From contig NZ_JAENHL010000008.1 in the NCBI RefSeq assembly GCF_016595235.1, forward strand, positions 135,246-199,245: 64,000 nt of DNA, written 5' to 3'. The stretch is from Taklimakanibacter albus. Lineage in GTDB: Bacteria > Pseudomonadota > Alphaproteobacteria > Rhizobiales > Aestuariivirgaceae. Under the pieces are notes generated by a model. The model was not told where the DNA came from. It was given only the letters and a program-made list of their open reading frames with translations, and searched no databases. The translations under genes and the position numbers were made by a program. Within the stretch, counting starts at the first letter, position 1. Every line of letters starts with the position of its first letter. This document shows positions 2,787-64,000 of the stretch, one piece after another.

Positions 2787-4136
2787 TCACACATTCAAAA
2801 GCAGGTATTCCCGCTCCCATGAGCTGATGACGCGGCGATAATGCTGCATCTCCTCATGTTTCACATCCTGGAACGCCTCGACGAACTTGTCGCCCAGCAC
2901 CTGCTTGAACGACTTGGTGTAGTTCAGCTTGTCGAGCGCCTCATCGAGGCTGATCGGCAGCGTGTGGGCGTAGCGATAGGCCGAGCCCTCGACCGGATCG
3001 GTGGGCTTCAGACGCTCGATCATGCCGAGATAGCCGCAAGCGAGCGAGGCCGCGAAAGCAAGATAAGGATTGGCGTCCGCCCCCGGCACGCGGTTCTCGA
3101 CCCGCAGATTTGCCGGATCGGAGGACGGCACACGCAACGAGACGGTGCGGTTGTCGATGGCCCAGTGGACATTGGTCGGCGCATCCGATTCAGGCACAAG
3201 CCGCCGGTAGGAATTGACATTGGGGGCGGCGAGCGGAAGGGCTGCCGCCAGATAACGCTGCAGGCCGGCAATGTGGCTGAGGAACAATTTCGACGGCTTG
3301 CCGTCCTTGCCGGCGAAGACATTCCTGCCGGTCTTCACATCCAACACCGATTGATGGATATGCATCGACGAGCCCGGCTCGTTCTCATGCGGCTTCGCCA
3401 TAAAGGTCGCATACATGTCGTGCTTGAGGGCCGCCTGGCGCACCGTGCGCTTGAACAGGAAGACCTGGTCGGCGAGCTCGAGCGGATCGCCGTGGTTGAA
3501 GTTGATCTCGAGCTGCGCCGGGCCGCTTTCGTGGCTCAGCGTGTCGACATCGAGCTCCTGCGCCTCGCAGAAATCATAGATGTCCTCGACGATCGGATCG
3601 AAGTCGTTGGCGGCGTCGATGCCATAGGCCTGGCCACCGGCTTCCTTGCGGCCCGACCGGCCCACCGCCGCCTCGAGCGGATAATCGGGATCGATATTAC
3701 GTTTGACGAGATAGAATTCGAGCTCCGGCGCAATGATCGGCCGCCAGCCCTTCTCCTTATAGAGTGCCAGCACGCGCTTCAGCACATGGCGCGGCGAGAT
3801 ATCGACCGGATCATCATTGAGATGGAAGGCGTCGCAGATGACCTGAGCGGTCGGCTCGCTGTACCAGGGCACCAGTCGAATGGTGTTGAAGTCGGGCTGC
3901 AGATAGATGTCGATCGCGGCGTCGCTGACCGCCGAGGTTTCCCACACATAACGGCCATTGATGGTGAGGGTGAAAACTTCCTCCGGTATGCGGAGGCCAC
4001 GCGATTTGTTGCCCTTCAAAAATTTCGAGGGAGGCAGGATCTTCCCCCGGGCCGTTCCGGACATATCGGCCACCAAACATTCAACTTCACTGATCCGGCG
4101 TTCGGTAATCCATTCCTCAAATTTCGCTTGCGACAT
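2787..4136 (-). CDS. puuA: Glutamine synthetase family, gamma-glutamylputrescine synthetase-like
   Basis: A 449-residue cytoplasmic GS-fold ligase. Members next to a PuuB-type oxidase join glutamate to putrescine or a related amine using ATP, the first step of the gamma-glutamylated polyamine route. Seen here: beta-Grasp N-terminus with VECLVADMSGTARGK, the metal site APELEFYL, GPAQLEINF, GSSMHIHQS and the late PGADANPYLAFAA. It is divergent from the FAD oxidase at 4220, with 83 bases between starts. Polyamine transport and agmatinase genes 13 kb away support a polyamine role, but GS-like ligases for other amines look alike, so the substrate is inferred. Confidence 0.8.
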   Translation of the reverse strand: MSQAKFEEWITERRISEVECLVADMSGTARGKILPPSKFLKGNKSRGLRIPEEVFTLTINGRYVWETSAVSDAAIDIYLQPDFNTIRLVPWYSEPTAQVICDAFHLNDDPVDISPRHVLKRVLALYKEKGWRPIIAPELEFYLVKRNIDPDYPLEAAVGRSGRKEAGGQAYGIDAANDFDPIVEDIYDFCEAQELDVDTLSHESGPAQLEINFNHGDPLELADQVFLFKRTVRQAALKHDMYATFMAKPHENEPGSSMHIHQSVLDVKTGRNVFAGKDGKPSKLFLSHIAGLQRYLAAALPLAAPNVNSYRRLVPESDAPTNVHWAIDNRTVSLRVPSSDPANLRVENRVPGADANPYLAFAASLACGYLGMIERLKPTDPVEGSAYRYAHTLPISLDEALDKLNYTKSFKQVLGDKFVEAFQDVKHEEMQHYRRVISSWEREYLLLNV

Positions 4137-55560: not shown

Positions 55561-55857
55561 CTACTCCGCAACCGTCTCCGCCTTCCTCTGCTCATACTCC
55601 GCCCTGTGCACTCCGAGCAGCGGCAGAACGAGATCGCGGCTGATGCGCGAGCCCAAGGTCTTGCCCGAAAAATTGGGGACCCGGCTCACCATCAGAAGCG
55701 CCACTGAGGCAGTGTAAGGCAGAACGGCCCAGGCGACCTCATGGCCGTCGGGAATGATGCCGAGGAACCCCATATACATCGGCGCCATGGCGAGGCCGGC
55801 GCCCGCCGGTGCCGGGGCGCCAGTGAAGAAATTCATTATCCAGGCGGGGAGAGGCAA
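55561..55857 (-). pseudogene. Remnant of CDP-diacylglycerol-serine O-phosphatidyltransferase (pssA)
   Basis: About 85 codons resemble the C-terminal half of PssA: PAWIMNFFTGAPAPAGAG, LPYTASVALLMVSRVPNFSGKTLGSRISRDLVLPL. The CDP-alcohol phosphotransferase motif (DGxxAR...GxxxDxxxD) that should precede it is missing: the frame is closed by a TAG about 57 bases upstream of the TTG at 55857. The final membrane segment is also replaced by a short polar tail (HRAEYEQRKAETVAE). It cannot be active. A full pssA is presumably elsewhere. It appears to be a decayed duplicate or a recombination scar; no IS ends are seen nearby. Confidence 0.65.
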
Positions 55858-55938: not shown

Positions 55939-56643
55939 TCAGGCTGCATTCCCGCTCATGTCCGCGAGGATGGCGAAAATCTCGTCATGGGCCTCGACGA
56001 TATCGTGTTCGAGCGCGGCAGCAGCCGCGGCGCCATTGCCTTTGCCGATCTGAGCGAGGATTTCGGCATGGTCGTCGTGCGCCGGCAGCATGATGTCGCC
56101 TGATCGCCTCAAGCTGAGAACCGGCCCGGCCTGGAGCCAGAGAATTTCGATCGTATTCATCAGCGTCCTGTTCTGGCAGAGACCGTAAACGGAAAAATGG
56201 AACGACTGGTTGAGCTTCAGATATTTCCTGATATCCGCTTTTTTGCTCAAATCGAGCTGGTCGAGCTTGCTGTTGATTTCCCCGATGGGCTTCAGATCCT
56301 GACGGGCACCACGCTCGGCGGCCCACATCACGGCCTGCTTTTCGTTCAAGAGGCGGACTTCGAGAAGACTGCGCAGACGGTCGACAGTGATGACGGGCAC
56401 TCGCGTCGTCTTGCGCGGCTCGCTTTCCAGAACCCCGGCGGCACTGAGCCGGTTCAGCGCTTCCCGCACCGGCATGTGGCTGGTGCCGAAGGCTACGGCC
56501 AGTTCCTCGAGCGGCAAGGGTTGGCCGGGAGCGAATTCCCCCGCCATCAGGGCACTCTTCAGCTCGGAATAGACATGGTCGATTGTCGAGACTGGCGTTG
56601 ACTTGAGCTGCGGCATCGCAAATCTGGAAGTGTCTTTGGGCAT
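55939..56643 (-). CDS. GntR family transcriptional regulator, FCD subfamily
   Basis: A 234-residue regulator. ATG at 56643 was chosen because AGGAGAAG lies ten bases upstream; longer in-frame starts (to 56751) add unlikely sequence. Winged helix at residues about 20-80 (HVYSELKSALMAGEFAPGQPLPLEELAVAFGTSHMPVREALNRLSAAGVLE), FCD domain after it (LLEVRLLNEKQAVMWAAERGA...NQSFHFSVYGLCQNRTL...HDDHAEILAQIGKGN). It is divergent from the transporter and SDR/BKACE/AcnX operon and is its likely controller. The operator candidate is the TTGATC-type palindrome at 56820-56836. Confidence 0.9.
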   Translation of the reverse strand: MPKDTSRFAMPQLKSTPVSTIDHVYSELKSALMAGEFAPGQPLPLEELAVAFGTSHMPVREALNRLSAAGVLESEPRKTTRVPVITVDRLRSLLEVRLLNEKQAVMWAAERGARQDLKPIGEINSKLDQLDLSKKADIRKYLKLNQSFHFSVYGLCQNRTLMNTIEILWLQAGPVLSLRRSGDIMLPAHDDHAEILAQIGKGNGAAAAAALEHDIVEAHDEIFAILADMSGNAA

Positions 56644-56776
56644 ACGCGCTTTCTTCTCCTGATGCGCTCCACGATGTCCGGCCATGACGCGCCGATTCGG
56701 GCATCCCCGAGATTCCGCACGCTTCACGATACCTACATGTCTCGCTCGCAACCGATCAAGAATCTTTCGCCGAGCC

Positions 56777-56836: not shown

Positions 56837-56901
56837 GATTTTAAACCCAAATGAATCATCGTCAAGCCCGACAGGGCCTCGTTCTTCAAGGGAGAAACGT
56901 C

Positions 56902-58014
56902 ATGAAGCGTCGCGATTTCCTCGTCCGGCAAGGGCAGTTCCTGACCGCGCTATTGTTGGCCGGCGCCCTGCCACCTGCAATCGGCAGCCGGCCTGCCGGG
57001 GCTCAGACCGCCAATGTGACGCTTAAGTTCCTGGGCTGGCAGGGCTATGACGATCCCAAGGCGATGGCGCCGCTCGGCGACAAGGGCATCACTCTCGATG
57101 CGCAGTACGTCACCGGCAATGCCGAGATCGTCACCAAGCTGCGCAGCGGCGGACTGGGCGCCATCGACGTCGTGACCCCCGGCATCAGCGCCGTGCGCCC
57201 GCTGATCACCGCCGACCTGATCCAAGCCATCGATTTCACGAAAATGCCGAGCGCCGCGGCATTCTTCCCGCAATTCAGGGGGCTCGATTGGCAGAAAGCG
57301 GATGGCAAGGACTTCGCCGCACCAGTCATGTGGAGCGACTACCCGATCAGCTATCGCGCCGATCTCTTCACCGATCTCCCGAACAAGTGGGCCGATCTCG
57401 GTGATGAGAAATATCGCGGGCGCCTCATCACCCTCGACGATCCCGCCAATCTCTGGGTCTTCGCCAAAACTCTGTTCAACACGTCGGATTTCGCCTCGCT
57501 GACCAAAACCCAGCTCGAAAAGACCGTCGAGGCCTATATGCCCATCAAGAAGAATCTCGTCGCGGTTTCGCCGAGCTTCGGCGACATCGTCGATGTCCTG
57601 GCCCGTGGCGATGCGCATGCGAGCGTGCTTGGCTGGCGCTTCATCGAGGTCCAACTGAAGAAGAAGGGCATGGCGGGCGCATCCCATGTGCCGACGGACG
57701 GTACCTTCCTCTGGTGCGACTCCTATTGCATCGCCAACCAGGCGCCGCATCTTGATGAGACCTATGCCTTCATCAACCAGATGCTGTCGCCGGAAGCCAA
57801 TGCGATCATTGCCGCCGGCACCGGCTCGGGCGTGATCAACTCCGAGGCGGTCAAATTCCTGCCCGAGGATCAGCGCAAGCTCTATCCATACGACCAGCTC
57901 GGCGACTTCCTGGCAAAGAACCCCTTCTACATTTCACCACGGCTGGAAGCCGAGGGTGACATAGCCAGTTTGCGCGACTGGACCGCGGCCTGGGATCAGG
58001 TCAAGCTGTCGTGA
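56902..58014 (+). CDS. ABC transporter substrate-binding protein, PotD-like
   Basis: A 370-residue exported binding protein. AGGGAG precedes the ATG at 56902, and the leader MKRRDFLVRQGQFLTALLLAG looks twin-arginine. The mature protein is of the PotD/extracellular family 1 type: TLKFLGWQGYDDP, VTKLRSGGLGAIDVVTPG, WSDYPISYRADLF, DTYAFIN-like DETYAFINQMLSPEAN. The polyamine-type family also carries other cationic or zwitterionic amines. Because the downstream enzymes are not polyamine enzymes, a different substrate is likely here. First gene of the rightward operon. Confidence 0.88.
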   Translation: MKRRDFLVRQGQFLTALLLAGALPPAIGSRPAGAQTANVTLKFLGWQGYDDPKAMAPLGDKGITLDAQYVTGNAEIVTKLRSGGLGAIDVVTPGISAVRPLITADLIQAIDFTKMPSAAAFFPQFRGLDWQKADGKDFAAPVMWSDYPISYRADLFTDLPNKWADLGDEKYRGRLITLDDPANLWVFAKTLFNTSDFASLTKTQLEKTVEAYMPIKKNLVAVSPSFGDIVDVLARGDAHASVLGWRFIEVQLKKKGMAGASHVPTDGTFLWCDSYCIANQAPHLDETYAFINQMLSPEANAIIAAGTGSGVINSEAVKFLPEDQRKLYPYDQLGDFLAKNPFYISPRLEAEGDIASLRDWTAAWDQVKLS

Positions 58015-59120
58015 CCACGACGACGTCGTCTGGACCGGCTGTCGCTGTCGCAGGCATATCCAAGCGGTATGGGGCGGTGCAGGCGCTGTCCGACGTAACG
58101 CTTGCGGTGGCGCCAGGCCGGTTCGTGTCGCTTCTCGGTCCTTCGGGCTGCGGCAAGACGACGCTTATGCGCATCATCGCCGGCCTCGACCGCCAATCGG
58201 AGGGGCGCGTGCTCATCGATGGCAAGGATATGTCCCGGACGGCGCCGCATCGCCGTCCGGTCGGCCTCGTATTCCAGCGCTATGCGCTTTTTCCGCATAT
58301 GACGGTCGCGGAAAATGTCGGCTTCGCGTTACGTCTGCGCGGCGCCGATCGCAGCGCAACGCAAGCTCGCGTCCAGGAACTGCTCGACCTGTTTCAACTC
58401 GGCCAGTTCGGCGGCCGCTCGATCGATCAGCTGTCGGGCGGGCAAGCCCAGCGCGTCGCCCTGGCGCGCGCCCTTGCCGACAGTCCGCCGGTCCTGCTGC
58501 TCGACGAGCCCATGTCCGCGCTCGATCTCAAATTGCGCCAGGCCATGCAGCTCGAGCTGCGCCGCCTGCAGAAGCAGATCGGCGCGACCTTCCTCTTCGT
58601 GACGCATGATCAGGACGAAGCCATGGTCATGAGCGACGAGATCGTGCTCATGAACAATGGCGAGATCGTGCAACGAGGGACGCCAGAAGAAGTCTATGGC
58701 AGGCCGCGCAGCCTTTTCAGCGCCCGGTTTCTCGGGGAAGCCAATCTATTCTCTGGACCGCTGCGGCGCGAAGCGGGAGCAACTCTGCTCGATGCGGGAA
58801 GTCTCCTGCTGAAGTCACACGCCGCGGCGGACTTCGCGGCAACGAAGGGCTGGGCCTGTATCCGGCCTGAGGCCATAAGAATCGCAGCGAGCTCCGACAA
58901 TAAGGCGGAGCGGCGGCCCAACGCAGCCGCGGGTCGCGTCCGGGAAGCGATTTTTCAAGGCGCCTATCGCCGTTATGTCGTGGAACTCGACGGTCACAGC
59001 CTCCTGGTCCAGCAGCCGGCGGGATCGGATGCGGTACCCACCTTCAGTGAAGCCGATCCCGTCAGCGTCTCGTGGTCCGAGAGTGGGATCACTTATATCG
59101 AAGATGCCGACAATGCTTAG
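58011..59120 (+). CDS. Polyamine-type ABC transporter ATPase (PotA-like)
   Basis: A 369-residue ATPase with GTG start overlapping the preceding stop by four bases. Motifs: Walker A GPSGCGKTT, VFQRYALFPHMTVAENV, signature LSGGQAQR, Walker B LLLDEPMSALD, H-loop FVTHDQDEA and a C-terminal TOBE region (RVREAIFQGAYRRYVVELDG). Works with the two permeases that follow. Confidence 0.92.
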   Translation: MTTTTSSGPAVAVAGISKRYGAVQALSDVTLAVAPGRFVSLLGPSGCGKTTLMRIIAGLDRQSEGRVLIDGKDMSRTAPHRRPVGLVFQRYALFPHMTVAENVGFALRLRGADRSATQARVQELLDLFQLGQFGGRSIDQLSGGQAQRVALARALADSPPVLLLDEPMSALDLKLRQAMQLELRRLQKQIGATFLFVTHDQDEAMVMSDEIVLMNNGEIVQRGTPEEVYGRPRSLFSARFLGEANLFSGPLRREAGATLLDAGSLLLKSHAAADFAATKGWACIRPEAIRIAASSDNKAERRPNAAAGRVREAIFQGAYRRYVVELDGHSLLVQQPAGSDAVPTFSEADPVSVSWSESGITYIEDADNA

Positions 59121-59964
59121 GCAACTTGGCCTCATGGTCGCGCCGGCCGGCCTGTTCATGGCGATCTTCTTCATCGTGCCGCTTGGCGTGCTTTTCGCCT
59201 ATTCATTCGGCGCCACCAACGGCATCGACGTGTCCTTCGGCTTTTCGCTCGACAACTACACGAAGGTCGTCACCTCTCCCCTCTTCCGCGATCTCATCTG
59301 GCGTTCGCTGTGGGTCGGCAGCTGCGTCGGCATCTTCTCCATCGCGCTTGCCTTTCCCCTCGCCTACGCCATCACGCTCGGTCCGCTGCAACGCGCCGGC
59401 ACCTTCGTCTTGTTGATGGTGATCGTATCGCTTTTCACCGCCTATATCGTCCGGATCTATGCCTGGCGGACCTTGCTCGGAAAGCAGGGCGCGATCGGTC
59501 AATTGCTGGCCGCCGCGGGCGTCCCCGGCGCCCCGCTCGAAGCGCTGAGCTACAGCAAGGCAGCGGTCATCATCACACTGGTCAGCATATTGGTGCCGGT
59601 GGCTGTTCTCCCCCTGACGTCGGCCCTGTCCGGCATTCCGCCCGCCTGCATCGCCGCCGCCCGCAGCCTCGGCGCCACCGCCTTCGGCGCCTTCGCCCGA
59701 ATAACCGTTCCGCTGGCGAGCCGCGGTATCATCTCGGCCTTCGCCCTCACCTTCGTCATCGCCGCCGGCGACTTCATTACGCCGCAGCTCCTCGGCGGTC
59801 CTCAAGCGCAGCTTGCCGGCAACGCCGTGGTGAGCCGCTTCGGACTCTCATTCGACTGGCCACTGGGTTCGGCCATCGCCTTCACTCTGATCTTCCTGAT
59901 GGGCGCATTGCTCTGGGCGATGACCCTGGTCCTCCGCCGCCTCGGTATCAAGGACCGACCATGA
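59113..59964 (+). CDS. Polyamine-type ABC transporter permease, PotB-like
   Basis: A 283-residue permease. ATG at 59113 overlaps the ATPase stop by eight bases; ATG at 59104 is an alternative. The N-terminal segment (LMVAPAGLFMAIFFIVPLGVLF) and VRIYAWRTLLGKQGAIGQLL fit PotB, with an EAA loop AAARSLGATAFGAFARITVP. Four-base overlap with the second permease. Confidence 0.9.
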   Translation: MLRQLGLMVAPAGLFMAIFFIVPLGVLFAYSFGATNGIDVSFGFSLDNYTKVVTSPLFRDLIWRSLWVGSCVGIFSIALAFPLAYAITLGPLQRAGTFVLLMVIVSLFTAYIVRIYAWRTLLGKQGAIGQLLAAAGVPGAPLEALSYSKAAVIITLVSILVPVAVLPLTSALSGIPPACIAAARSLGATAFGAFARITVPLASRGIISAFALTFVIAAGDFITPQLLGGPQAQLAGNAVVSRFGLSFDWPLGSAIAFTLIFLMGALLWAMTLVLRRLGIKDRP

Positions 59965-60746
59965 CTTACGGACGCACCTCGATCATCGCCTTCACGGCCT
60001 ATACATGCGTGCTTCTCGCCTTCCTGTTCGCGCCCATTGCGGTCGTCGTCTTGTTCTCCTTCGACTCCAAGGGCATCGCTGCCTTTCCCTTTCAGGGACC
60101 AACTCTGTCCTGGTATCAGGCGGTCATCGCCGATCCCATCATCAGGAAGGCCGCTCTGAACAGCGTCATCGTGGCTGCCGGCACGACACTTGCCTGCATC
60201 CTGATCGGCACGTCGGCCGCCTTTGTCATCGCGCGAACGCGATCCCCATCCACCACCGCCTTCGCCGGGCTGATGGCGCTGCCTTTGCTGTTGCCACATC
60301 TCCTGCTCGGAATAGCGCTCCTGTCTTTCTTCAACAGCATCGGCATCGGACTCAGCCTGTGGACGGCCATCATCGGGCATGTTCTGATCACGCTGCCCTT
60401 TCTCGTGTTCACCCTGAGCGCCCGGATTGCCGGTATCGACCCACAGCTTTCGGAAGCCGCCGCCACGCTCGGCGCCAGTCCGGCGAAAGCCTTCGCCACC
60501 GTCACCTTGCCGCTGATCCGCAGTGCGATGATCGGCGCGGCGCTGCTTGTCGTCGCCTGGTCCCTGGACGAGTTCAGCGTGTCGTTTCTGACGATCGGAT
60601 CGTCCAACACACTGCCGATCATCATCTGGGGACAAATGCGCGCCGGCGTCAGCCCGACCGTCAATGCCATATCGGCCCTCATGGTGCTGGCGACGATTCT
60701 CCTGGTTTGCGTCGTCCATCGGCTGGCCGATCTCAAATTCCGCTGA
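59961..60746 (+). CDS. Polyamine-type ABC transporter permease, PotC-like
   Basis: A 261-residue permease, ATGA overlap with the previous gene. PotC-like features: LFAPIAVVVLFSFDSKGIAAFPFQGPTLSWYQ, LPLLLPHLLLGIALLSFF, the EAA loop SEAAATLGASPAKAFATVTLP and DEFSVSFLTIGSSNTLPIIIWGQMR near the end. It completes a four-component importer. Confidence 0.9.
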   Translation: MTYGRTSIIAFTAYTCVLLAFLFAPIAVVVLFSFDSKGIAAFPFQGPTLSWYQAVIADPIIRKAALNSVIVAAGTTLACILIGTSAAFVIARTRSPSTTAFAGLMALPLLLPHLLLGIALLSFFNSIGIGLSLWTAIIGHVLITLPFLVFTLSARIAGIDPQLSEAAATLGASPAKAFATVTLPLIRSAMIGAALLVVAWSLDEFSVSFLTIGSSNTLPIIIWGQMRAGVSPTVNAISALMVLATILLVCVVHRLADLKFR

Positions 60747-60757
60747 CAAGGAGCGTG

Positions 60758-60793
60758 ATGACTATGACTTCCAACAAGAATGGTGACGAATGA
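60758..60793 (+). CDS. Possible 11-residue leader peptide coupled to the SDR gene
   Basis: ATG at 60758 has AAGGAG four bases before it and encodes MTMTSNKNGDE, stopping at 60793. Its stop overlaps the SDR start (ATGATGA at 60790-60796), while the SDR itself has only a weak GGTGA. The arrangement suits translational coupling or a short upstream reading frame. It is not proven to be translated; alternatively it is just a remnant of the strong ribosome site. Confidence 0.4.
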   Translation: MTMTSNKNGDE

Positions 60794-61578
60794 TGAAGAT
60801 CGATCTCTCCGGCAAGCGCGCATTGATCACGGCGGGCGCCAGCGGTATCGGCTATGCCATCGCGAAAGGCTTGGCTGCGGCAGGTGCGCATGTGCATGTC
60901 TGCGACATCAATTCGGAGCTTCTGGCAAGACTGGCGCAGACCGACCCGGCAATAGGGTCGTCCCGAGCCGATGTGGCCGATGAGGCTTCGGTCGATCGCC
61001 TGTTCGAGGAGGCGCTGGCGAAGCTCGGTGGGCTCGACATCATGGTCAACAATGCCGGCATTGCGGGGCCGACCAAGCTCATCGAGGATATCGAAGATGC
61101 GGAATGGCGTGCGACGGTGGACGTCAATCTCACCGGTCAGTTCTACTGCACGAGGCGCGCGGTGCCGCTGCTGAAGCAGGCGGGCGGCGGATCGATCGTC
61201 AATCTCTCCTCGGCGGCCGGGCTTCTCGGCCTTCCCATGCGGGCGCCCTATGTGGCGGCGAAATGGGCGGTCGTGGGATTGACCAAGACTCTGGCCATGG
61301 AGCTCGGCGCTCATGGCATCAGGGTGAACGCCATATGTCCGGGCTCGGTCGAGGGCGACCGCATGGTGCGCGTCCTGGCGGCAGAATCGCAGGCACTCGG
61401 GATCGACACCGAGACGCTGCGCCACAATTATGTGAAGCACACTTCGTTGCGCAGCTTCGTCACGGCCGATGACATTGCCAATATGGTTGTTTTCGTCTGC
61501 TCCGATCTGGGCGCCCGTATTTCGGGCCAGGCGCTGTCCGTCGACGGCCACACGGAAACGCTCGTCGCCCGCGACTGA
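60790..61578 (+). CDS. Short-chain dehydrogenase/reductase
   Basis: A 262-residue NAD(P)-dependent oxidoreductase: cofactor motif TAGASGIG (14-21), acidic residue in HVCDIN (Asp39, favouring NAD over NADP), NNAG (87-90), catalytic Ser141, Tyr154 and Lys158 (YVAAK), and PGSVEGDRM. It likely oxidises a beta-hydroxy acid to the beta-keto acid used by the BKACE enzyme next in the operon, as carnitine dehydrogenase does in carnitine breakdown. That role is inferred from gene order. ATG at 60793 is an alternative start. Confidence 0.88.
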   Translation: MMKIDLSGKRALITAGASGIGYAIAKGLAAAGAHVHVCDINSELLARLAQTDPAIGSSRADVADEASVDRLFEEALAKLGGLDIMVNNAGIAGPTKLIEDIEDAEWRATVDVNLTGQFYCTRRAVPLLKQAGGGSIVNLSSAAGLLGLPMRAPYVAAKWAVVGLTKTLAMELGAHGIRVNAICPGSVEGDRMVRVLAAESQALGIDTETLRHNYVKHTSLRSFVTADDIANMVVFVCSDLGARISGQALSVDGHTETLVARD

Positions 61579-61625
61579 GCGTGCCCCTCCCATCAGTTCA
61601 AGTCCGACAACAACGGAGTTCTCGC

Positions 61626-62531
61626 ATGAGAAACGAAGTCATCATCACCTGTGCCGTCACCGGAGACGATTCGAAAGTCACCAAGAGTCCCTACTGCGCG
61701 GTAACGCCTACGGAGATCGCGCAATCGGCGATCGAGGCAGCGAAGGCCGGCGCAGCCATCGTCCATATCCATGTCCGCGACCCCGAGACCCGCGCCTACA
61801 GCATGGAGACCAAATATTATCGCGAGACTGTCAAGACGATCCGCGAAAGCGGCGTCGACGTGATCGTCAATCTGACGGCGGGCGTGGGCGGTTATGTCTA
61901 TGTCTCCAATGACGGCGAGCTTCTCGGCCCGGAGCATGGCACCGATTTCGTGAGCCAGGAGACGCGCATGCGTCACGTCATCGAGCTGGTCAATGAAGGC
62001 CGCTATGCGCCGGAAATCTGCACCGTCGATTGCGGCCCCTACAATGTCGGCGATGGCAACCGCACCTATCTCTCCACCCCCGACTATGTCAGGCAGGGTA
62101 CCCGCCTGTGCCGGGAGCTTGGGGTGAAGCCGGAATTCGAGGTGTTCGATACCGGACATCTCTGGCTCTGCCAGAAGATGATCGCCGAGGGGTTGGTCGA
62201 CGACCCGATGATGGTGCAGCTGTGCGCTTCCATTCCCTATGCGATGCCGGCCAATGTCGGGCTGCTCGCCAGCCTGGTCTCGACACTTCCGGCATCGGCG
62301 CAATTTGCTTCCTTCGGCATCGGCCGTCTGCAAATGCCGATGGTGGCGCAATCGGTCATGCTGGGCGGCCATGTGCGCGTTGGCCTCGAAGACAATCTCT
62401 ACCTTTCCAAGGGAGTCTACGGATCGAACGCCCAGCTCGTCAGCAAGGCGCGCACCATCATCGAGGCAATGGGCGCCAAGATCGCATCGCCAGAGCGCGC
62501 GCGCGATCTCTTGAAGATCAAGCGGCGCTGA
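61626..62531 (+). CDS. Beta-keto acid cleavage enzyme (BKACE, DUF849)
   Basis: A 301-residue zinc-dependent TIM-barrel enzyme. BKACE proteins react a beta-keto acid with acetyl-CoA to give acetoacetate and a new acyl-CoA. The ATG at 61626 is preceded by GGAG; the frame from 61581 is non-homologous upstream. Metal histidines 47 and 49 (VHIHVRDPETR) and the late GGHVRVGLEDNLYL with Glu255 are in place. The substrate-defining residues cannot be read reliably by eye. It follows the SDR and precedes a hotdog thioesterase, the same trio logic as in carnitine degradation. Confidence 0.9.
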   Translation: MRNEVIITCAVTGDDSKVTKSPYCAVTPTEIAQSAIEAAKAGAAIVHIHVRDPETRAYSMETKYYRETVKTIRESGVDVIVNLTAGVGGYVYVSNDGELLGPEHGTDFVSQETRMRHVIELVNEGRYAPEICTVDCGPYNVGDGNRTYLSTPDYVRQGTRLCRELGVKPEFEVFDTGHLWLCQKMIAEGLVDDPMMVQLCASIPYAMPANVGLLASLVSTLPASAQFASFGIGRLQMPMVAQSVMLGGHVRVGLEDNLYLSKGVYGSNAQLVSKARTIIEAMGAKIASPERARDLLKIKRR

Positions 62532-62536
62532 TAGCG

Positions 62537-62977
62537 ATGCTGCACGCGCCAGTCGAAACCTTTCGCGGGGTCGTCTATCCGTGGCAGTGCGACGGCATGG
62601 GCCATATGAACACGCAGTTCTATTCGGCCCTCTATGACGGGGCGACCCTGCACTTCCTGGCCCGCCTCTGTCCGCAGGCGGAGCTGAAGAAGCTGAACTA
62701 TGGATGGGCCGACGTGCAGCAGCTCATCCGATACGAGATCGAGCTGGTGGCCGGCGACTTGCCGGTGGTCCGCACGAGCCTCATTCGCATGGGCAACAAA
62801 TCGATCGAATATCGCCATCAGCTGTGCGACGCCGAGACCGGGAGGGTGCATTCGACGAGCGATCAGGTGACCGTGCTCTTCGATCTCGAACGCCGGGCAT
62901 CGGCGCCGCTCAGCGATGCCATCCGTGATGCCGCCCGCCGACTGGCCGCCGCGCATCCCATGAATGGATCGCCGTGA
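62537..62977 (+). CDS. Acyl-CoA thioesterase, 4HBT hotdog family
   Basis: A 146-residue hotdog protein with the 4HBT start pattern VVYPWQCDGMGHMNTQFYSALYDGA (Asp near residue 17, His and Asn following). It would hydrolyse the acyl-CoA released by the BKACE reaction. The start at 62537 lies five bases after the BKACE stop, and GTGA at its end overlaps the next gene. Related proteins act as betainyl-CoA thioesterase in carnitine breakdown, where they may be fused to the dehydrogenase; here the two are separate. Confidence 0.85.
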   Translation: MLHAPVETFRGVVYPWQCDGMGHMNTQFYSALYDGATLHFLARLCPQAELKKLNYGWADVQQLIRYEIELVAGDLPVVRTSLIRMGNKSIEYRHQLCDAETGRVHSTSDQVTVLFDLERRASAPLSDAIRDAARRLAAAHPMNGSP

Positions 62978-64000
62978 CGGACCTCAGGCTGACTTCTGAG
63001 GATCAGGCGACCCTCAATGGTGAAAGGGGAGCGGCCGCCGGCATGGCCATGGCCGTGCTCGTACGTTTCTGCGCAGCGCTCGGGGCTGGTGGACTCCTGG
63101 ATATCGCACGAACGCATATTGATGGATGCCTCTATCACGGCCAGGCGGGCCTCGATTTTGTCGACAGGCTCGTCGCCTTGGGCGGCAAGGTGCAAGTGCC
63201 AACGACGCTGAATGTCGGCTCGGTCGACCTGATCCATCCGGAGCTGATGCGCGTCAAGCGCGAGGATGAAAGTCCCATGCGCCGGCTCATGAGCGCTCAT
63301 CTCGCTTTGGGCTGCGCCCCCACCTTCACCTGCGCGCCCTACCAGACGCGCTTTCGTCCGCGCTTCGGCGAACAGATCGCCTGGGGAGAATCCAATGCGA
63401 TCATCTTCGCCAATTCCGTGATCGGCGCGCGCACGAACCGCTATGGCGACTTCATCGACCTGTGCTGTGCGCTGACCGGGCGCGCTCCGGCCTGGGGACT
63501 GCATCTCGATGCGAACCGGCGCGGCCAGATTTTGTATGAGATCGTCGGACTTTCTGCGTCTCTTGCGGCGAGCGACAGCCTCTATGTAGCGGTCGGATTG
63601 GTTATCGGAGAGAAGAGCGGCGACCATCTCCCCGTCATCAACGGCCTGCCGCCGCCTCGAGACGAGGATCAGTTGAAGGCGCTCGGCGCCGCCGCCGCGT
63701 CCGCCGGCTCGGTCGCGATGTTTCATGCCGTCGGAATTACGCCCGAGGCCGCAACTGTTGGGGAGGCTTTCGGTGGCAGAACGCCCGATCAGACGATCGC
63801 GATCAGCGAAGCCGACCTGGCCCAGGCCCTTGCGCGCCTATCCAAGGTTCCGGACGGTTCTCCGATATCGGCCGTGTCGCTGGGCACACCGCATTTCTCC
63901 CTGGACGAGTGGCGGCGGCTGATACCGTTGCTGCGCCGGTACCGGCCGCAGAGAAACATCCCGATCTATGTCAATACCGGCCGTGACACGCTGAGCGAGC
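62974..64000 (+). CDS. Aconitase X (DUF521) family dehydratase, partial at the right edge
   Basis: At least 342 codons are open from the GTG at 62974 to the end of the window without a stop. The start overlaps the thioesterase stop by four bases. Hallmarks are HIDGCLYHGQAGLDFVDRL, VPTTLNVGSVD, LGCAPTFTCAPYQ, WGESNAIIFANSVIGARTNRYGD and VSLGTPHFSLDEW. Known aconitase X enzymes dehydrate cis-3-hydroxyproline or, in archaea, phosphomevalonate. Two-part (large and small subunit) and fused forms exist; which applies here lies beyond the window. Its place after SDR, BKACE and thioesterase is unusual and points to a hydroxylated amine or imino-acid substrate. Confidence 0.87.
   Translation, partial: MTDLRLTSEDQATLNGERGAAAGMAMAVLVRFCAALGAGGLLDIARTHIDGCLYHGQAGLDFVDRLVALGGKVQVPTTLNVGSVDLIHPELMRVKREDESPMRRLMSAHLALGCAPTFTCAPYQTRFRPRFGEQIAWGESNAIIFANSVIGARTNRYGDFIDLCCALTGRAPAWGLHLDANRRGQILYEIVGLSASLAASDSLYVAVGLVIGEKSGDHLPVINGLPPPRDEDQLKALGAAAASAGSVAMFHAVGITPEAATVGEAFGGRTPDQTIAISEADLAQALARLSKVPDGSPISAVSLGTPHFSLDEWRRLIPLLRRYRPQRNIPIYVNTGRDTLSE

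Follow-up and report, generated by a model that had tools for sequence, protein, structure and literature searches.

The window analysed here is a stretch of 64,000 nucleotides from the genome of Taklimakanibacter albus (G000:C8:135246-199245; host genome 7.17 Mb). At its right end lies an operon that opens with the four genes of a Pot-type ATP-binding cassette (ABC) importer. These are followed by a short-chain dehydrogenase/reductase (SDR), a beta-keto acid cleavage enzyme (BKACE), a hotdog thioesterase and aconitase X (AcnX), which here is the two-subunit form. A regulator of the GntR/FCD type is transcribed divergently. We argue that this is a GntR-controlled operon for a carnitine-family compound, that is, a 4-ammonio-3-hydroxybutanoate such as an isomer of carnitine or a relative with fewer methyl groups. 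We give this reading about an even chance. We infer what the substrates are, how the operon is regulated and which way AcnX works.

Genes in the window were called from an open reading frame (ORF) listing and Pfam profiles, and the remainder was read from the same contig (Table 1). The gene content, order and coupling described in the initial annotation of this DNA are confirmed by the ORFs, by Pfam and by synteny with a second genome. Reading on past the end of the window, as it had proposed, gave the end of the AcnX large subunit and then the small subunit. Convergent genes beyond this are pssA and psd (by eye).

Table 1. Position of the operon genes and flanking features, numbered from the first base of the window
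Feature	Position	Strand	Evidence
pssA remnant	55609..55848	-	240 bases; matches an internal stretch of the intact pssA on the right flank at 94.6% identity
GntR/FCD regulator, divergent, start position uncertain	55939..56751	-	Pfam GntR 70.5 bits, FCD 62 bits
Solute-binding protein (SBP), PotD/PotF-like	56902..58014	+	SBP_bac_8 78 bits; PotD model 55.4 bits, cut-off 582
ABC ATPase, PotA-like	58011..59120	+	Pfam ABC_tran and TOBE_2
ABC permease, PotB-like	59104..59964	+	PotB model 150 bits, cut-off 348
ABC permease, PotC-like	59961..60746	+	BPD_transp_1 45.2 bits; PotC model 152 bits, under cut-off
SDR, proposed 3-hydroxy acid (carnitine-type) dehydrogenase	60790..61578	+	adh_short_C2 205 bits
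BKACE	61626..62531 (ATG 61626)	+	PF05853 286 bits
4HBT_2 hotdog thioesterase	62537..62977 (ATG 62537)	+	4HBT_2 59.6 bits; weak match to the thioesterase half of a carnitine 3-dehydrogenase fusion model (33.7 bits, cut-off 592)
AcnX large subunit	62974..64230 (window ends 64000)	+	PF04412, 368 bits for the part in the window
AcnX small (DUF126) subunit	64227-64679 (L009:11473-11925), past window end		contig read on

The genes are tightly packed. Overlaps of four bases join the SBP to the ATPase, one permease to the other, the thioesterase to the AcnX large subunit and the two AcnX subunits to each other. The thioesterase starts 5 bases past the BKACE stop, and the SDR and the BKACE are preceded by gaps of about 43 and 47 bases. 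Two starts have alternatives: the SBP was taken from the ATG at 56902, with a further in-frame ATG upstream at 56851, and the PotB-like permease begins at ATG 59104 or 59113.

Conservation of the gene set and its site

A BKACE-based scan of genomes gave 45 loci. It used exact peptide patterns, which relatives can escape, and 10 of the 45 loci are shorter than 12 kb and may hide neighbours. The whole gene set is found in only one of them, L010 (Rhizobiales bacterium Y(2018)). L010 has all ten genes in the same order, and each has a dN/dS (ratio of nonsynonymous to synonymous substitution rates) of 0.05-0.30 against the window. The regulator is 97% identical. We argue that the set is not a chance one because the order is identical and dN/dS is this low in every gene. 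The initial annotation had raised the prospect of the same gene order in other genomes. This holds for the whole set in L010 alone, and two plasmids share the core without AcnX.

Those two plasmids were reached through the thioesterase. Relatives of it occur in 18 plasmid records, and those near BKACEs are 37-41% identical. All six plasmid regions read around such relatives have a BKACE match. In L151 and L153 this match spans only about 240 residues, and the one in L152 belongs to the sugar-acid type and has several genes in between. The plasmids of Phyllobacterium zundukense and Rhizobium sp. BT03 were chosen because an SBP search also matched them. Each holds a BKACE, an SDR, thioesterase kin and an importer within about 20 kb (L148 72-19851; L149 1-19851). 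The SDRs are 49-50% identical to that of the window. The full importer is 64-75% identical and in the same order (SBPs 66-68%). Hydantoinase/oxoprolinase and CoA-transferase genes are also present. These two rhizobial plasmids imply that importer, SDR, BKACE and thioesterase can occur together without AcnX, as neighbouring sets rather than one short operon.

The importer would take up a cation. Its ATPase scores 354.3 bits with the potA subfamily model (cut-off 355.6) and 361.2 with PhnT2 (cut-off 457.7), and the Pfam score of the PotB-like permease is 24.6 against a cut-off of 26.4. Aligned to PotD, the SBP keeps Trp34, Tyr37, Asp168, Trp229, Trp255 and Asp257 and has the changes T35Q, S83G, Y85S, E171N and Y293S, at positions that we take to form the PotD site. 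This pattern appears to suit a cation other than spermidine. An imported polyamine was considered and set aside, given the PotD score in Table 1 and the site residues that are lost.

The operon stands beside pssA. L010 has a different pssA remnant of 132 bases (3104-3235) that shares its left border with the 240-base remnant of the window. The remnants look like what is left of a longer duplicate after independent decay in the two lineages. The congener G247 was compared by BLAST with window positions 40001-64000 joined to the following stretch of the same contig (L009). About 0.5 kb past its pssA region G247 has sequence that matches the window left of about 44975. Some 20 kb (window about 44975-64745), operon included, is absent at this pssA site, and the best AcnX match in G247 has 44% identity. 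The missing 20 kb and the pssA remnants therefore fit an acquisition of the operon beside pssA, and it was probably acquired as a unit. The stretch absent in G247 also holds a Dpp-type peptide importer, an M20-type peptidase and a phospholipase-D-like gene (by eye).

Kinship of the BKACE and the SDR

The BKACE tree has 71 rows; L080 was dropped for its long branch. In all trees, in-frame stops in rows taken from tblastn ranges were entered as X. The window BKACE is joined first by L010 and L011 (100/100), next by L012-L017 to make 9 rows (100/100) and after that by L018 and L019 to make 11 rows (97/95). All of these fall within a group of 26 rows (94/98). Every row of this clade outside the 9-row group (17 of 17) has a 3HCDH-type gene within 6 kb. 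Four 3HCDH genes from loci of this kind were scanned (L079, L021, L016 and L018), and each finds its best match in carnitine dehydrogenase models, with L021 alone passing the cut-off (492.7 bits against 414). The 3HCDH gene of the sugar-acid-type locus L077 has a different model as its best match. It should be kept in mind that the carnitine-cluster label of the clade comes from gene context, its rows including no assayed enzyme.

The six nearest BKACEs outside the window, L010 and L011 are those of L012-L017. A carnitine-lineage thioesterase adjoins all six, and four have a CaiD homologue. The one in L012 best matches crotonobetainyl-CoA hydratase, under the cut-off. Further genes in L012 encode a Rieske oxygenase, a Pot-type importer and an NDP-forming acyl-CoA ligase. 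Judged by sequence, the window BKACE largely belongs with the BKACEs of carnitine clusters, in a clade named from context. The substrate class of this clade is fairly clear. When the window BKACE is aligned to Kce (2y7d), both His, Thr106, Glu143, Arg226, Glu230 and Asp231 are kept. We take these to be metal or catalytic residues of Kce.

Another class of substrate must be considered here. The operon could be a sugar-acid (2-deoxyaldonate) pathway that resembles deoxyribonate oxidation. In that case SDR, BKACE and thioesterase would lead to glycerate, and AcnX would act on a sugar acid. Deoxyribonate catabolism employs an SDR and a BKACE, according to the available part of PMC6365646. A sugar-acid-type BKACE, an SDR and AcnX are adjacent in L075, the AcnX kin in L060 lie among sugar-type genes (Gfo/Idh/MocA, xylose-isomerase-like and PfkB), and a quick SDR tree groups the window the same way (see below). 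However, the window BKACE is about 32-33% identical to the sugar-acid clade, whose substrate label likewise comes from gene context, and is separated from it by a 100/100 branch. Where Kce has Asn108, the window and the carnitine-cluster rows have Asp, whereas all four sugar-acid-type rows aligned have Asn. This Asp is not confined to carnitine-cluster rows, being found in L041, L049, L081 and L082 too. The importer, moreover, is Pot-type and not sugar-type. We consider a sugar-acid pathway improbable.

The SDR was placed twice. The quick tree (51 rows, many long branches) puts the window with SDRs of sugar-acid BKACE clusters (98). A more careful tree has 36 rows, of which 33 are matches above 150 bits from hand-chosen loci and 3 were added, and most long branches are removed. 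In this tree the window forms a group with L010, L011 and L121 (94/93). The sister group has 16 rows, of which carnitine clusters supply 14, and the 20 rows together are supported at 97/96. An approximately unbiased (AU) test rejected a clade of window, L010, L011 and the 14 carnitine-cluster SDRs (p 4.4e-5). The group tested omitted L089, L099 and L121. We argue that the test was off target since L089 and L099 fall among the carnitine SDRs, and L121 was left out as well. Of seven diagnostic columns three are carnitine-type (145, 183, 223) and four are sugar-type (115, 128, 241, 244). The window SDR ends in a C-terminal VDGH that 13 of the 14 carnitine-cluster SDRs also have, and sugar-acid SDRs have Asn or Asp for the His. 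Taken as support, not proof, this suggests that the SDR is kin to those of carnitine clusters.

What these SDRs do is suggested by a review that names D-carnitine dehydrogenase as an activity (PMC2131755, available part). We infer that the carnitine-cluster SDRs could be this enzyme.

The exact amine is a separate question. Where Kce has Glu14, an Asp is found in the window, L010, L011, L012, L013, L014 and L016, and a Gly in canonical carnitine rows, L079 among them. With Asp in place of Gly, the amine may be a somewhat different one. The operon could then serve a gamma-amino-beta-hydroxy acid that has fewer methyl groups or is derived from a ring, such as 4-amino-3-hydroxybutanoate or one of its N-methyl forms, and a lactam may be the source. 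The product would be glycine or sarcosine and not betaine. Genes for hydantoinase/oxoprolinase, whose family opens lactam-type rings, are present in the plasmid clusters with kin of the importer, SDR and thioesterase, and the SDR and BKACE of L011 are accompanied by a DMFA2-like protein and a RidA-like protein (the latter by eye). On the other side, the Asp loop may not mark a different amine because L012, L013, L014 and L016 share it beside carnitine-type genes: all four have carnitine-lineage thioesterases, and L012, L014 and L016 have CaiD homologues. We regard the route to glycine or sarcosine as unlikely.

L011 (4799-9909) holds the nearest SDR-BKACE pair outside the operon, and this pair also adjoins a Dpp-type importer. 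AcnX and thioesterase queries gave no match in the L011 stretch. The one AcnX found in this metagenome-assembled genome (MAG), a 47% homologue, lies off that stretch. The initial annotation had named an aconitase X gene in a separate unit of related genomes as something that would count against it, and L011 partly bears this out. The ten-gene unit is kept in L010.

Aconitase X and the proposed pathway

AcnX enzymes are dehydratases of beta-hydroxy acids, acyclic mevalonate 5-phosphate included (PMC8184944, available part). The same part describes the bacterial Type II subclasses IIc-IIf as without landmarks of either known function and in need of characterisation. The window AcnX falls within a bacterial subgroup that carries a GSSSS motif. 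Compared with AtAcnX it keeps the equivalents of Ser70 (the base), Cys273, Glu292, Ser293, Asn294, Lys530 and Tyr534, and the residues that bind the carboxylate and the 3-OH. One Cys of the C508/C510 pair is kept, at position 508 in one alignment and at 510 in another.

One could suppose that AcnX is a cis-3-hydroxyproline-type dehydratase that was carried along and serves a separate imino-acid reaction. Asp203 and Trp35 are indeed kept, but both are present in all 43 rows compared and so are uninformative. For the same reason we dropped the idea that W35 and D203 hint at a cationic substrate. C71, T72 and I206 of cis-3-hydroxyproline dehydratase are S, S and L in the window. With the LhpI model the large subunit scores 400.5 bits and the small one 112.2, against a cut-off of 700 for the fused protein. 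This is not a fair test because AcnX is split here and the model is fused. A scan of the ten operon proteins found no hydroxyproline gene, and the AcnX gene overlaps the thioesterase gene by four bases. A hydroxyproline role for this AcnX is very unlikely in our view. The initial annotation had suggested a hydroxylated cyclic amine, betaine or imino acid. The cyclic amine and the imino acid are not supported, as AcnX lacks the proline landmarks and the BKACE kin stand, by context, in clusters for acyclic quaternary amines.

The distribution of AcnX was examined in 40 loci from an order-wide search, drawn from part of the matches listed; one is the host's own paralogue. A BKACE is nearby in L075 only. 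A phylum-wide search at E 1e-95 found AcnX in 11 of 398 genomes, the host's included. An SDR of the same family (51-56% identical) adjoins AcnX in L075 and L121, besides the window and L010, and the AcnX genes of the window, L075 and L121 fall in different clades. This repeated pairing suggests a shared beta-hydroxy acid and leaves its tail open. In L075 (6763-10376), from a genome of the order, a sugar-acid-type BKACE, the SDR (56%) and both AcnX subunits lie side by side. They make up a second BKACE-SDR-AcnX set, whose AcnX (46%) is of another clade. L121 (6312-9697), on a plasmid of Pseudomonas sp. MPC6, has a class II aldolase, the SDR and AcnX large and small subunits; importers for glycine betaine and a regulator of the GlxA type lie close by.

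With a carnitine-family substrate the pathway would run as follows. After uptake the SDR would oxidise the 3-hydroxyl to give a beta-keto acid (3-dehydrocarnitine or an analogue). The BKACE would use acetyl-CoA to convert this to acetoacetate and a short amino-acyl-CoA (betainyl-CoA or an analogue), from which the thioesterase would release the free amino acid (glycine betaine or an analogue). AcnX would work on the same skeleton at C2-C3, independently of CoA. Most likely it would add water to the 2-enoate (crotonobetaine) and so give the hydroxy acid; alternatively it would interconvert hydroxy isomers. We argue that AcnX may stand in for a CoA ligase and CaiD since L012 has both of these after its BKACE and thioesterase, where the operon has AcnX. 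The choice of beta-hydroxy acids for this AcnX is a short one because the four-base overlap and selection tie it to a BKACE clade of fairly clear substrate class. Our tentative suggestion is that AcnX works without CoA as an [Fe-S] crotonobetaine hydratase/carnitine dehydratase, or as an isomerase acting through the enoate; as a specific assignment this is rather unlikely.

If it is true, the four enzymes AcnX, SDR, BKACE and thioesterase of this one operon would form glycine betaine from crotonobetaine or from the carnitine isomer that is not preferred, with no need for the CoA ligase and CaiD of known clusters. A bacterial AcnX subgroup that lacks characterisation would gain a function. Were AcnX to dehydrate carnitine or hydrate crotonobetaine in free-acid form, CaiB/C/D chemistry would have a counterpart that needs no CoA. 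A literature search, mostly without subscription papers, nowhere linked aconitase X with carnitine, nor aconitase with crotonobetaine and carnitine dehydratase.

Several observations count against a carnitine-family compound. The 26-row BKACE clade is just below the bootstrap mark of 95, and the 60 rows on its side of the tree include clusters without 3HCDH (L048, L049, L081, L082, L041 and L044). The BKACE loop reads GDDSKVTKS, as opposed to GAGDTVGKH in canonical carnitine BKACEs. The quick SDR tree and the four sugar-type SDR columns belong here too. The thioesterase of the window groups with those of L010 and L048, apart from 44 rows of other clusters, although with long branches. The closest AcnX kin, in L057-L060 (68-69% identical), stand without a BKACE; these loci have a Pot-type importer. 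Finally, the host already has a carnitine cluster, L079, and a second for the same compound would be redundant.

L079 is a separate locus with a GbdR-like regulator, a BKACE, a carnitine dehydrogenase-thioesterase fusion, an SDR and a crotonobetainyl-CoA hydratase-like gene, each labelled by its best model match, all below cut-off. Its BKACE and SDR are 51% and 48% identical to those of the window. Since the host keeps this CaiD-bearing cluster, the operon is more likely to be for another isomer, an enoate or an analogue than for L-carnitine. The host genome has 8 PF05853 (BKACE) matches, 1 with an in-frame stop, and 2 AcnX genes. The BKACEs of host loci L077-L082 are in varied settings; L077 is sugar-type with lactonase-like genes and L082 has hydantoinase-like genes (some by eye).

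The initial annotation had noticed a likeness to carnitine breakdown in which an SDR takes the part of carnitine dehydrogenase. This is borne out, and AcnX remains the odd member of the operon as it had said. Its view that the pathway fits no named one needs revision. Carnitine-type metabolism suits the core better than the label unassigned does, because the BKACE, and less firmly the SDR, place with carnitine clusters.

Comparison with known systems

The cis-3-hydroxyproline enzyme and the window AcnX share the residues that bind the carboxylate and the 3-OH, but the landmark residues of the former are not found in the latter. Oxidative deoxyribonate catabolism, as given in the available part of PMC6365646, shares the sequence of SDR then BKACE, with a CoA ester left for hydrolysis. 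It differs in having lactonase and major facilitator superfamily (MFS) importers in Pseudomonas simiae, and the window BKACE is in another clade if the context-only sugar-acid label is right.

The D-carnitine dehydrogenase route (PMC2131755, available part) was compared by name, with no sequence of a proven enzyme at hand. Common to both would be a dehydrogenase for the other isomer, and SDRs of the window's family stand in carnitine clusters. AcnX has no place in that route.

A further parallel is with aerobic degradation of carnitine to glycine betaine in Pseudomonas and Sinorhizobium meliloti (in part PMC12482172). Like that pathway the operon has a BKACE that gene context assigns to the same clade, a 4HBT_2 thioesterase and a first step that would oxidise the 3-hydroxyl. 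Profile scans of the operon found no 3HCDH-type carnitine dehydrogenase, the SDR being the only candidate for this step. The CoA ligase, CaiD and the GbdR-like regulator are absent as well. Instead of these the operon has the SDR, AcnX, a Pot-type importer and a GntR regulator.

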